The notes below the pieces were generated by a model that had not been told where the DNA came from, did no database searches, and saw only the letters and a list, made by a program, of their open reading frames with translations. A DNA stretch of 64,000 nucleotides from Nitratiruptor sp. SB155-2. GTDB lineage: Bacteria; Campylobacterota; Campylobacteria; Campylobacterales; Nitratiruptoraceae. The DNA lies in the NCBI RefSeq assembly GCF_000010325.1, contig NC_009662.1, positions 764,501 through 828,500 on the forward strand, written 5' to 3'. Both the position numbers and the translations under genes were made by a program. Within the stretch, counting starts at the first letter, position 1, and every line of letters begins with the position of its first letter. This document shows, in pieces, positions 42,388 to 46,739 of this stretch.

Positions 42388-42674
42388 TGGAAAATGTGAA
42401 CCCAGAAGATGTTTTGATTGTGGAAGCGGAGATTGTACCTGATGGGATGGGAGGATGGATGATACGTTGTCTCAATACCGAGACCAACGAGGAACGCTAC
42501 TGTAAAACGATAGAAGAGTACAGCGCTTTTTTGAACGAGTGTGTCTATACAACTTCCAAAGAGAATTTCCAAGCAATATGGCTGGAGTCTCCAAAAGCGA
42601 CACCTGCAATGATTGCGGATGTTCGTAAAAAACTGATGGATTTTTACAAAGAGATGGAAAATAGAGTGGTGTAA
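42387..42674 (+). CDS. Small hypothetical protein downstream of psd
   Basis: A 95-residue acidic protein from ATG 42387, which shares a base with the psd stop; GTG 42384 one codon earlier is possible. Predicted beta-strand start (VLIVEAEIVPDGMGGWMIRC) and a helical tail with PAMIADVRKKLMDFYKEME. Two cysteines (CLNTE and NECVY). No family recognised. Co-transcribed with psd; may be a cytosolic accessory, but nothing in the sequence states a role. Confidence 0.7.
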   Translation: MENVNPEDVLIVEAEIVPDGMGGWMIRCLNTETNEERYCKTIEEYSAFLNECVYTTSKENFQAIWLESPKATPAMIADVRKKLMDFYKEMENRVV

Positions 42675-42693
42675 GCTATTCAGCCACCATTCG

Positions 42694-42715
42694 GTAATCA
42701 TGAAAATGATTATCA
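42694..42715 (+). promoter_or_regulatory. Fur-box-like palindrome upstream of porin-feoA-feoB
   Basis: A perfect 7-base inverted repeat, TAATCAT (42695-42701) and ATGATTA (42706-42712) with a 4-base AT-rich spacer, flanked by TATC, matches the Fur consensus of repeated GATAAT half-sites in its reverse complement. It lies about 70 bases before the porin ATG and the operon carries feoA/feoB, so iron repression by Fur is the natural reading. Binding itself is inference. Confidence 0.7.
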
Positions 42716-42782
42716 AAATTAAGTGTAGTTTAAGGTCCGTTCTTTTATCATTGCATTGTTCAAATAGATAAAGGACGACCGA

Positions 42783-43922
42783 ATGAAAAAGTTTTTTGCG
42801 TCTATCTTGTTTATCGCTTCTTTGTATGCAGATGTCTCACTGAGAGAGAAATTGGGTGAGCACTCTCCTTTTGATCATATCAATGGAGAGGTTCGTGCAG
42901 GCTATATAGACGCTACGGGATTTGATCCGACTTTTGCGATTGGCGGCCATCTTCACTTGGATACGAAATATTACAACGGATTTCGTGCGGGGTTGGCCGT
43001 TTATACATTGCAAGATTTGGGTTTGAACGGTAATAATCCAAATAGTGAATTTTTCGGCTCTTCACAAAAGCAGTTCACATTTCTCTCGCAAGCTTATATC
43101 AACTATAGATACCGAAACTTTTCTCTTTGTTATGGAAGATTTTCACTGGATACACCCCATATGGATAGTGATGACATACGCATGGTGCCAAACTATTTTG
43201 AAGGTTTCAAAGGAGAGTGGAAAAAGGATGCATTCAAAATTCAAGCTGGCTATATTACGAAAATGGCTGGTTGGGAAAATGGAGGAAAAATCGAAAATTT
43301 CGAGCCACTTTCTCAGGTTATAGGCCTTGCAAACGATAAAGATATGGCTTTTATTGGCTTTTCGCTATCAACTGATACATATTATGCGGATATATGGACA
43401 TATCATATGCAAGATATAGCGTCTATCGTCTATAGTGAAATAGGAACGGAGTTTGCCATAGATAAAATACAATACCATCTTGCTATACAATGGGATAGAG
43501 CCTGGGATAGTGCAGATGCTTTGGTCGGTCCGATTGATTCTTCTACTCTTGGGTTCCTTGTTGATGTGGGTTGGAAGGAGTGGACTTTACATGGTGCCTA
43601 TAATAAAGAGTTGGGAACAACTGCTTCAATGTGGAGTTTTGGAGGAGGGCCATTTTTTACGTCGATGGAATTTATGACGATCGATGCATTGACAGGGGCA
43701 CATCCTGATAGTTATATGACAGGCATCTCTTATACAACGGAAAATGTAGATATAGGGATTATGCATGCAAATTTTGAAGACAATATTGATGATATTGAGG
43801 AAAACGACATATATTGTATCTGGCAGCTGCCTTATGAAATCGAGTGTGAAGCAGTGGCTGCTTTCATAAACGATACAGATAACAATACAATATTTCGATT
43901 ACGCATACGGAAAGGTTTTTAA
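42783..43922 (+). CDS. Outer-membrane porin-like beta-barrel protein in iron operon
   Basis: A 379-residue protein with a signal peptide (MKKFFASILFIASLYA, cleaved before DVS), amphipathic beta strands throughout (for example KQFTFLSQAYINYRYRNFSLCYGRF cut at residue 98-122), acidic loops, and a C-terminal phenylalanine (RIRKGF), as in outer-membrane porins of the OprD/alginate-type set seen in Campylobacterota. No TonB box or plug is visible, so passive diffusion is likely. First gene of a Fur-box operon with feoA and feoB, suggesting that it lets Fe2+ or a ligand reach the periplasm. RBS AAAGGACG. Confidence 0.8.
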   Translation: MKKFFASILFIASLYADVSLREKLGEHSPFDHINGEVRAGYIDATGFDPTFAIGGHLHLDTKYYNGFRAGLAVYTLQDLGLNGNNPNSEFFGSSQKQFTFLSQAYINYRYRNFSLCYGRFSLDTPHMDSDDIRMVPNYFEGFKGEWKKDAFKIQAGYITKMAGWENGGKIENFEPLSQVIGLANDKDMAFIGFSLSTDTYYADIWTYHMQDIASIVYSEIGTEFAIDKIQYHLAIQWDRAWDSADALVGPIDSSTLGFLVDVGWKEWTLHGAYNKELGTTASMWSFGGGPFFTSMEFMTIDALTGAHPDSYMTGISYTTENVDIGIMHANFEDNIDDIEENDIYCIWQLPYEIECEAVAAFINDTDNNTIFRLRIRKGF

Positions 43923-43923
43923 A

Positions 43924-44148
43924 ATGAAATTGACTGATATGAAAATATCTCAAGAAGGCATTATCAAAAAAGTAACGGCACAGGAGCCTATACGAGGACG
44001 TCTCTTTGCCATGGGTATCACAAAGGGCAATCGTATAAAACTTCTTGACCATACACTGAAAAAACAGACATGGGAAGTAGAAGTTGAAGGTACAAGAGTA
44101 GCTTTGAGAGACGAAGAAGCAAAAGCTATAGAGGTGGAAAATGAATAA
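43924..44148 (+). CDS. feoA: FeoA, ferrous iron transport protein A
   Basis: A 74-residue SH3-like FeoA: GIIKKVTAQEPIRGRLFAMGITKGNRIKLLDHTL cut to the RLFAMGITKGNRIKL core, then EVEVEGTRVALRDEEAKAIEV. FeoA associates with FeoB in the cytoplasm and is required for Fe2+ uptake in E. coli. It starts 1 base after the porin stop and overlaps feoB by 8 bases. A second, distinct FeoA-domain protein occurs at 12311-12535. Confidence 0.95.
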   Translation: MKLTDMKISQEGIIKKVTAQEPIRGRLFAMGITKGNRIKLLDHTLKKQTWEVEVEGTRVALRDEEAKAIEVENE

Positions 44149-46237
44149 AATACGCGCAATTATGGTTGGTCAACCTAACGTTGGTAAATCTTCTATAATC
44201 AATGCCATATCCAATGCCAGATTGCATGTAGGAAATTTTGCAGGCGTGACGGTGGAAAAGAAAGAGGTTTTGATCAAAAAAGATGATTACGAGATTGATA
44301 TCGTCGATCTGCCGGGAATCTATTCATTGCATGCCTACACTCCAGAAGAGCATGTTACGAAAAAATATCTTTTAAACGAATCATATGATGTGATTGTCAA
44401 TGTTGTCGATGCAAACGTGTTGCAAAGAAACCTTGTTTTTACGCTGCAGCTTCTGGATATGCGTAAAAAAACTATCCTTGTTGTCAATATGATCGATGAG
44501 GTTGAAGAGAAGGGTGGCTCTATCGATGCGGATAAACTTTCCAAACTTCTTGGCATACCAGTCATTCTGACCAGTGCCAAACAAAAAAGAGGTGTTGAAT
44601 CTATTTCGCAAAAGATCATAGAAGTTTTTGAATCCAATCGATGCGATTGCAAGATCTATTACAATGAAAAAATTGAAGAAGAGATTGAAAAACTCTCTAA
44701 AATATTGCTCAAATCTCCTCATTGTCAAACCCCGGATTTAGCGAGATTTTATACGATCAGACTCTTGGAAAAAGATGAAGATATTTACAAGATCATTCAT
44801 GATCTTCCTATTTTTTTAGAACTGCATGAAGCGCTTGGTGAGTCGATGAGGCGGTTGGAAATAGAGTTTGATGTAGATGATGTACGCGACCTTTTTGCTC
44901 AGGAAAGGAACTCTTTGGCAAAAAGTATTGTCATGCAGGTAATGCAGTTTCCGCAAAAAGAGACGCTTACAGATAAAATCGACAAACTCTTGATCCATCC
45001 CGTTTTTGGATTGCCAATATTTCTCTTTTTCATGTGGGCACTTTTTCAGCTCACCTTTGAGATCGGCTCCATACCGATCGACTACATTGATCAAACAGTG
45101 ACCAATTTTGCAGACTGGCTCAAGGGAATTTTACCGCCGGGGGATCTCAATTCCGTTATTACCGACGGTGTTATTCCAGCAGTTGGTGCGATTATTATGT
45201 TTTTGCCAAATATCTTGATTCTGTTTTTAGGGATCAATCTGCTTGAACAGACAGGTTACATGTCAAGGGCTGCCTTTTTGCTTGATGGATTTTTGAAAAA
45301 GTTTGGATTGCAAGGGAAAGCTTTTATACCGCTAGTCAGTGGTTTTGGATGTAGTGTTCCAGCTTATATGGCAGCTAGGACATTAAAAAATCCAAAAGAT
45401 AGACTCATAACGATGCTTATCATTGGATTTATGAATTGTAGTGCAAGATTGCCTGTTTATGTGCTTTTCATCGCTGCATTTTTCCCGACCCACAGTGCTG
45501 GAAATGTGCTTTTTACCATCTACATTTTAGGTGCAATTTTTGGTCTCATTGTTGCAAAGATTTTACGTACACTCCTGTTTAAAGGAGAGCCTGAACCTTT
45601 CGTTATGGAGATGCCTCCTTATAGATTCCCATCACTGAAAGCTTTGGCAATGGAGCTTTGGATCAAAACGAAACTTTTTGTGAAAAAAGCGGGAACTTTT
45701 ATTGCCGGAACTGCAATGATCATCTGGTTTTTAAGCAGTTATCCAGTAGATCAGCATTTGGTACAGACCTATGAACAGAAGATCGAACAAGCACAAAGTG
45801 AACAAGAAAAGGCTACATTGCAGAACGAACTCGCTTCAAAGAGTTTGGAAAATAGCTATCTAGGACAGTTTGGCAAGGCGATTGAACCTATATTCGCACC
45901 ACTTGGATTTGATTGGAGACTCAGTGTTGCGACAATTAGTGGTTTGGCAGCCAAAGAGGTTGTGGTTTCGACACTCGCGACACTCTATGCGGTAGGTGAA
46001 GCAGATGAAAACAATACGACCTTCATCCAAAAACTGAGAGAAAACATCGATTTCAAAGCCGCTGTCGCATTGATTGTAATTATTATGATGTACAGCCCTT
46101 GTGTAGCGGCCATGAGTACATTTTATGCTGAAGTGCCCCAATGGGCATGGAGAACGTTTTATACTATCTACCCAAATGTTTTGGCTTGGATAATGGCCTT
46201 TTTGACATACAATCTTTTATCCTTTATGGGCATGTAA
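44141..46237 (+). CDS. feoB: Ferrous iron transporter FeoB
   Basis: A 698-residue Fe2+ permease: N-terminal G domain (GQPNVGKSSIINAI at 8-21, DLPGIYSLH, NMIDEVEE), then a guanine-dissociation-inhibitor-like linker, and a membrane part with two gate repeats including FGCSVPAYMAARTL and the final AAKEVVVSTLATLYA. Typical length is 700-770. It moves Fe2+ across the inner membrane. Last gene of the Fur-box operon porin-feoA-feoB. Iron acquisition would suit anoxic or micro-oxic growth. Confidence 0.96.
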   Translation: MNKIRAIMVGQPNVGKSSIINAISNARLHVGNFAGVTVEKKEVLIKKDDYEIDIVDLPGIYSLHAYTPEEHVTKKYLLNESYDVIVNVVDANVLQRNLVFTLQLLDMRKKTILVVNMIDEVEEKGGSIDADKLSKLLGIPVILTSAKQKRGVESISQKIIEVFESNRCDCKIYYNEKIEEEIEKLSKILLKSPHCQTPDLARFYTIRLLEKDEDIYKIIHDLPIFLELHEALGESMRRLEIEFDVDDVRDLFAQERNSLAKSIVMQVMQFPQKETLTDKIDKLLIHPVFGLPIFLFFMWALFQLTFEIGSIPIDYIDQTVTNFADWLKGILPPGDLNSVITDGVIPAVGAIIMFLPNILILFLGINLLEQTGYMSRAAFLLDGFLKKFGLQGKAFIPLVSGFGCSVPAYMAARTLKNPKDRLITMLIIGFMNCSARLPVYVLFIAAFFPTHSAGNVLFTIYILGAIFGLIVAKILRTLLFKGEPEPFVMEMPPYRFPSLKALAMELWIKTKLFVKKAGTFIAGTAMIIWFLSSYPVDQHLVQTYEQKIEQAQSEQEKATLQNELASKSLENSYLGQFGKAIEPIFAPLGFDWRLSVATISGLAAKEVVVSTLATLYAVGEADENNTTFIQKLRENIDFKAAVALIVIIMMYSPCVAAMSTFYAEVPQWAWRTFYTIYPNVLAWIMAFLTYNLLSFMGM

Positions 46238-46263
46238 TTACTACTGATCCTATTCGATCCTAA

Positions 46264-46295
46264 GGTAAAGTTTGGTAAAATCGGGCAACTTTACC
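46264..46295 (+). promoter_or_regulatory. 9-bp inverted repeat flanking a -10-like element before the yccU-like gene
   Basis: GGTAAAGTT (46264-46272) and AACTTTACC (46287-46295) are perfect inverted repeats with a 14-base loop that holds TAAAAT (46276-46281), a -10-like hexamer. Upstream is a direct repeat GATCCTA (46246-46252 and 46256-46262) with a 10-base period. It lies between feoB and the CoA-binding protein gene. No run of T follows, so a terminator is unlikely; an operator or 5'-leader hairpin is possible. Confidence 0.45.
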
Positions 46296-46307
46296 GAAAG
46301 GATCGCC

Positions 46308-46739
46308 ATGGATTGTGAATTTCCTTCCATCAATTCCAATACTCAAGAGATAAAACAGATTTTTGAAGAGGTCCGAACTATAGCGATTGTCGGACTCTCA
46401 CCAAATCCCGAAAAAGATAGTCACAAAGTGGCAAAATATCTTCAAAGTGTTGGATACAAAATCGTTCCTATCTATCCGAAAGAGGAGACGATTCTTGGAG
46501 AGAAGGTATATCGTTCTTTACAAGATGTTCCTTTTGCAATCGATATGATCGATGTTTTTAGAAAACCAGCCGCAGTTACTCCTATCGTCGATGCAGCACT
46601 TCAAAGAGGTGATGTGAAAGTGGTATGGCTGCAAAAGGGGATAGTGAACAATGAAGCAGCCCAGAAGGCGAAAGAGGCTGGGTTGAAAGTGGTACAAAAC
46701 AGATGTACCATGGTCGATCATAGAGCAATTTTTGGATAA
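46308..46739 (+). CDS. CoA-binding domain protein (YccU-like)
   Basis: A 143-residue Rossmann-like protein of the CoA_binding_2 family: EVRTIAIVGLSPNPEKDSHKVAKYLQ cut to IAIVGLSPNPEKDS near residue 26, YKIVPIYPKEETILGEK, and VVWLQKGIVN, then the C-terminal CTMVDH. The family binds CoA; the function is unknown. Start ATG 46308 with AAAGGAT upstream (frame open from 46272 without a ribosome-binding site). Starts the ilvA-ppx-ilvB-ilvH-lpxD run. Confidence 0.85.
   Translation: MDCEFPSINSNTQEIKQIFEEVRTIAIVGLSPNPEKDSHKVAKYLQSVGYKIVPIYPKEETILGEKVYRSLQDVPFAIDMIDVFRKPAAVTPIVDAALQRGDVKVVWLQKGIVNNEAAQKAKEAGLKVVQNRCTMVDHRAIFG

Follow-up and report, generated by a model that had tools for sequence, protein, structure and literature searches.

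Does the porin gene that stands at the head of a feoAB operon in Nitratiruptor sp. SB155-2 supply the outer-membrane step of ferrous iron uptake, or does its product serve some other solute? To our knowledge, unspecified porins are usually held to let Fe2+ cross the outer membrane on its way to Feo, and a porin sharing a Fur-type box with feoAB is a defined gene pair with which outer-membrane Fe2+ entry could be tested. The locus lies in a stretch of 64,000 nucleotides (NC_009662.1, positions 764,501-828,500, forward strand; source contig 1,877,931 bases), which as a whole is called the window here and in whose numbering the following elements are given. We consider it likely that the locus is an iron-starvation operon in which a Fur-repressed Occ-type porin feeds iron, most simply Fe2+, to FeoAB.

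42783-43922, forward strand: OprD/Occ-type porin gene, 379 amino acids with an N-terminal signal-like region; Pfam OprD; an 18-strand barrel in the structural model.
43924-44148, forward strand: feoA, 74 amino acids; Pfam FeoA (PF04023), 73.3 bits.
44141-46237, forward strand: feoB, 698 amino acids, ferrous iron transporter; TIGR00437, 620 bits (cut-off 315.65).
42701-42715, strand not given: Fur box TGAAAATGATTATCA, which agrees with TGATAATNATTATCA at 13 of 14 positions and lies 82 to 68 bases ahead of the porin start.
42695-42712, strand not given: perfect 7-base inverted repeat TAATCAT-GAAA-ATGATTA (7-4-7), overlapping the Fur box; register not conserved.

The porin scores 42.8 bits with Pfam OprD (PF03573), above the gathering cut-off of 25, which places it in the OprD/Occ family; no other Pfam domain was found on it at E values up to 1, and OprB (PF04966) and SLH are thus not among its matches. 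FeoB carries the GTPase, Gate and FeoB_C domains besides its above-cut-off TIGR00437 score, and FeoA is encoded by a separate small gene, as expected of a FeoAB transporter. The feoA start follows the porin stop after a single intervening base, the last 8 bases of feoA are shared with feoB, and, as the preceding gene ends at 42674, the promoter region before the porin spans 108 bases. By this layout 42783-46237 is a tight porin-feoA-feoB operon whose genes would be co-transcribed. A sigma-70 promoter scan of 42500-46400 returned 12 sites against 11.1 expected, none of them in the porin promoter region.

The initial annotation of this DNA had pointed to a perfect repeat with Fur-like half-sites before porin-feoAB. 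The repeat is present, as a single exact copy in the 1.88 Mb genome, but its register is the wrong one, the conserved element being the 7-1-7 box at 42701-42715. TGATAATNATTATCA is the classical 7-1-7 form of the Fur box, and the box at 42701-42715 is the sole site in the window with at most one mismatch to it (0.04 expected) and one of only 3 genome-wide; when up to two mismatches are allowed, the genome has 30 sites, and the reversed pattern 8. The 7-4-7 palindrome is unremarkable as an inverted repeat by itself: perfect 7-base inverted repeats with spacers of 0-10 number 108 in the window and 58-79 in 5 simulated sequences.

For the comparison among relatives, each locus was given the score of its best match to TGATAATNATTATCA in the 250 bases ahead of its first gene. 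The count covers 87 of 110 loci, 12 with fewer than 150 bases upstream and 11 whose upstream was identical to a counted one having been dropped; a porin was taken as linked in this count if a same-strand feoB match lay anywhere in the locus (the two are some 3.6 kb apart in L106). A box matching at least 12 of the 14 positions is present in 31 of 34 porin-feoA-feoB operons, with 27 scoring 13 or 14, and in 18 of 19 operons of the order feoB-feoA-porin, with 8 scoring 13. Among control genes of the same loci only 2 of 192 reach 12, and none 13. When the same operons are compared in the 7-4-7 register, at least 12 positions match in 8 of the 34 (own locus counted) and in none of the 19. The 7-4-7 palindrome was therefore ruled out as the operator, its register being unconserved and such repeats not being rare. 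Absence of the palindrome in relatives had been named beforehand as a finding that would speak against the initial reading; read as a 7-1-7 box, the element is retained and the outcome is favourable. Such a conserved box in the promoter region is the mark of a Fur regulon member, and the porin is conserved and probably Fur-regulated. In feoB-feoA-porin loci, box-like matches also stand directly before the porin (TGATAATGAGTATTA); these may reflect the stop/start context and were excluded from the box counts.

PerR and Fur boxes are alike, and the genome encodes two FUR-family proteins, one scoring best with the Fur model (171 bits, below the cut-off of 200) and the other best with PerR. The box could in principle be bound by this second, PerR-like member, so that the operon would answer peroxide and not iron. 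This is hardly to be expected, as the conserved box form has the TGA/TCA ends of the Fur consensus and feoAB is regularly predicted to be a Fur target, for example in delta-proteobacteria (PMC545781).

Porins away from feoB often, but not always, appear to be accompanied by iron-type control. Of the 34 porins without a feoB in view, 19 are preceded by a box of 12/14 or better: 16 of the 23 located on short stretches and 3 of the 11 with full flanks. In 25 genomes the best porin match stands apart from feoB; the feoB regions of 13 of these were examined, and a feo box of at least 12/14 lies close upstream in 12 of the 13, the exception being L154. The porin upstream region was in view for 5 of those 13 genomes, and boxes of 13/14 were found in G144 (L022), G124 (L017) and G185 (L032, L154). 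In L154 (252-14234) the porin carries two 13/14 boxes and lies about 10 kb from feoAB in a 14-kb stretch of iron genes, which also encodes an unknown 681-residue protein, a 1133-residue beta-propeller and multihaem-cytochrome-like protein, a flavin adenine dinucleotide (FAD) oxidoreductase, a Dps/ferritin-like protein and an FTR1/EfeU-like permease that is above the Pfam cut-off and below that of NCBIfam. As a separate observation, two Fur-boxed porins with no feoB in view (L061 and L107) stand directly behind an ATP-binding cassette (ABC) transporter operon which by eye resembles molybdate uptake, its solute-binding protein in L061 being SBP_bac_11.

A search for the same trio elsewhere had been proposed as a check, and its result speaks for the linkage. 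The phylum draw comprised 397 genomes, of which 84, all of the same order or nearer, hold porin relatives at E values up to 1e-10; a search for feoB in each of the 84 was successful in 83. Linkage, meaning that a porin match and feoB share a strand and lie no more than 2.5 kb apart, was counted in 82 genomes with 150 matches listed, the matching genomes G224 and G304 being left out. Among the matches listed, a linked porin is present in 57 of the 82 genomes (58 of the 150 matches), and in the window's own family all 11 matching genomes, own genome included, have it. The porin precedes feoB in 46 of the 58 linked matches listed and follows it in 12, the latter order being confined to one family. 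On a set of 80 named loci, a same-strand feoB lies within the locus in 47, of which 24 are porin-first and 23 feoB-first; 19 of the 23 are titled Sulfurovum, and loci titled Nitratiruptor are also found among the porin relatives. Several of the remaining 33 of the 80 end near the porin at contig ends. In L026 the porin adjoins a divergent FeoB (32-35% identity) and the box matches at 14/14. Since there are two gene orders, and a divergent FeoB in L026, the linkage has survived both rearrangement and a change of FeoB type. A quick tree, with a weak root and long branches, has the linked and box-bearing porins spread across the porin tree. The operon, the Fur-type box and the link to iron are in this way borne out by conserved linkage and conserved boxes, the latter including those of many porins away from feo, and the porin most likely supplies FeoB.

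It may be asked at this point whether the porin, as a channel of general or sulfur-related use, simply rides in the feo operon and adds to overall permeability at low iron. OprD-like porins of Sulfurovum indicum are up on elemental sulfur and were proposed from transcriptomes to take up sulfur (PMC10045233), and in E. coli Fe2+ enters through general porins (PMC7315122). Against this, linkage in two gene orders, together with boxes on 19 of 34 porins without feoB in view, points to selection on the porin's own iron control, and we regard a general or sulfur-related role as very improbable. A porin that shares a Fur-type box with feoAB, and adjoins it in 57 of the 82 genomes counted, also advises caution, in that not every OprD porin of the Campylobacterota should be taken for a sulfur or carboxylate channel.

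What the pore itself would admit was considered from a structural model built with 70 sequences, which has 18 strands, a predicted local distance difference test (pLDDT) score of 90.9 and a predicted template modelling (pTM) score of 0.86. Its closest solved folds are Occ channels, headed by OpdK (Z 38.0, root-mean-square deviation 2.1 Å over 338 residues, 16% identity), and the major porin of Campylobacter jejuni comes lower in the fold search (Z 28.8). The profile of the 70 porin relatives matches OpdC at 3.4e-19; the lone sequence matches only OpdP, at 0.0088. The constriction loop of Occ channels connects strands 5 and 6; its counterpart in the present porin is the following:

Porin residues 121-137: acidic loop between strands 5 and 6, SLDTPHMDSDDIRMVPN, reading DTPHxDSDDIRM; 4 acids and 1 base.

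The acids of the loop are kept in the 70 aligned relatives (D130 in 70, D131 in 69, D128 in 66 and D123 in 61), while H56 and H58 of strand 2 co-occur with H126 in 40 of the 70. The counterparts of D123 and D128 are non-acidic in the OpdC and OpdL alignments shown, and at the four loop-acid places the two paralogues of the own genome are acidic at three (L001) and at two (L002). Such a conserved acidic loop fits a cation-friendly pore without proving one.

A different form of the solute was also considered. The porin may pass small iron-carboxylate or other iron complexes, from which iron would be freed or reduced in the periplasm before it reaches FeoB. Among solved structures the closest are those of Occ channels, for example OpdK (vanillate) and OpdC; three arginines are near-invariant among the 70 aligned relatives (R38 and R119 in 69 each, R133 in 66), and the porin of L154 is accompanied by the multihaem-cytochrome-like gene and the FTR1/EfeU-like permease. 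With regard to the basic ladder and carboxylate selectivity that characterize the Occ family, what was observed is the conservation of these three arginines. This is set against an operon that consists of porin, feoA and feoB alone with no chelate-uptake gene, a strand 5-6 loop that is net acidic, and a partner FeoB that is a ferrous transporter, and we hold passage of iron complexes to be rather unlikely.

Lumen charge was also considered as a marker of feo-linked porins. The lumen-facing residues were assigned from strand alternation and not from coordinates, and the group was recorded for 59 of the 70 rows. For this residue set the mean excess of acids is 7.6 in linked porins, 6.1 in unlinked porins with a box and 5.9 in unlinked porins without a box; for two loops the corresponding values are 2.9, 3.0 and 2.7, and 3.7, 4.3 and 4.0. 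The groups are not clearly separated by these values, and net negative lumen charge was not upheld as a marker. It is conceivable, if doubtful, that the porin is a truly Fe2+-selective channel, an Occ carboxylate channel turned to Fe2+ by an acid-histidine site (D123-T-P-H126-x-D128-S-D130-D131 together with H56 and H58), and kept under Fur in several families as the outer-membrane half of Feo, in part even when unlinked. Most of the loop acids are shared by unlinked relatives.

The course of events which we favour, that of a Fur-repressed porin feeding iron to FeoAB, would run as follows. In the iron-replete cell, Fe2+-loaded Fur would sit on the box at 42701-42715 and block transcription. 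On iron shortage, the porin, FeoA and FeoB would be produced together from a single message, and the 18-strand Occ-type channel in the outer membrane would let more iron flow into the periplasm. The solute would most simply be hydrated Fe2+, which is expected to be available in reducing vent fluid, and FeoB with FeoA would carry the iron from periplasm to cytoplasm. The gene identities, their close packing, the predicted fold, the box conservation and the conserved linkage are what the analysis shows; we infer that Fur binds and represses, that the three genes share a transcript, and that the solute is iron, as Fe2+ and not as a complex. Several observations weigh against this course. The carriage of carboxylates is typical of Occ channels; R38, R119 and R133 are nearly invariant; and the lumen is almost as acidic in unlinked, box-less relatives. 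In 25 of the 82 genomes with matches listed the best porin relative lies away from feoB, some part of which is due to draft contigs. The share of unlinked porins with full flanks that carry a box of at least 12/14 is just 3 of 11, and the porins away from feoB in G294 (L033) and G307 (L155) have no 12/14 box upstream. The sulfur uptake proposed for Sulfurovum OprD-like porins (PMC10045233) is a further such point. Because the Occ/OprD family is known for small carboxylates and lumen acidity barely distinguishes the feo-linked members, a dedicated ferrous-iron entry is something that we infer and no more.

The idea of a porin feeding iron uptake is not new, with precedents in Geobacter, cyanobacteria and E. 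coli. OmpC and OmpF of E. coli, encoded apart from feo, are general porins under EnvZ/OmpR control, and OmpW is a small 8-strand barrel. What the E. coli case shares with ours is that OmpC/OmpF and FeoB act in one Fe2+ pathway, described for OmpC with FeoB (PMC7315122); in a tonB background of E. coli, deletion of ompC and ompF together was not possible (PMC7315122). OmpW of Acinetobacter baumannii has been called an iron-regulated porin through which Fe2+ enters before it reaches Feo, but it is of another family, and an operon with feo goes unmentioned in the passage of PMC10483418 on OmpW. For Geobacter sulfurreducens an operon of predicted Fur box, porin, feoA, feoA and feoB was described and a ferrous iron role proposed (Rodionov et al. 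2004, PMC545781). The likeness is close, a porin standing behind a predicted Fur box directly before feoAB, whereas that porin is of the OprB family (PF04966) and the Nitratiruptor one of OprD (PF03573) only; moreover, the Geobacter operon had at that time been found in that species alone, while the Nitratiruptor type occurs in several families of the order. Slr1908 of Synechocystis is an outer-membrane porin called iron-selective, with experimental evidence for iron uptake (PMC11126600, PMC8707739), but it has SLH/OprB domains and PhoB control, and PMC11126600 makes no mention of feoB. Pseudomonas OpdK/OccK1 (PDB 2y2x) has the fold in common with our porin but is only 16% identical, and the Occ channels of Pseudomonas are named for carboxylates or amino acids. 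In the literature searched we found no account of an Occ-type porin-feo operon in Campylobacterota, which is weak evidence of absence as subscription papers were mostly outside its reach. As far as these searches go, what is new is which porin family takes part, that it occurs across several families of the order, and that its control is conserved.

The own genome holds further loci of the same kinds. Its two OprD paralogues have no Fur box, the best match within 250 bases being 8/14. A second feoAB lies at C1:85828-87837, with a FeoB 33% identical to that of the window; its 5-kb locus (L041) contains no porin match and no Fur box within 250 bases, and a 12/14 match is found about 1 kb upstream, inside apparent coding sequence. 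Close behind the feoB of the window, a CoA_binding_2 gene (46272-46739) may belong to the feo unit, and in L143 and L144, two loci in which feo has no adjoining porin, the gene behind feoB encodes what is by eye a similar protein (MECEFPT...). In L130 a pair of Fur-like boxes, one of 12/14 and one of 13/14 (C1:1605052-1605118), separates a DUF2325 gene from the gene of a Phenol_MetA_deg-type outer-membrane protein. The next gene, incomplete at the locus end, has no Pfam match and its product looks secreted; this is perhaps another iron-controlled transport operon. Lastly, the 15-mer TGAAAATCATTATGA or its complement occurs at six sites (C1:198903, 247841, 473179, 654194, 731222 and 1144861) and is probably part of a dispersed repeat.

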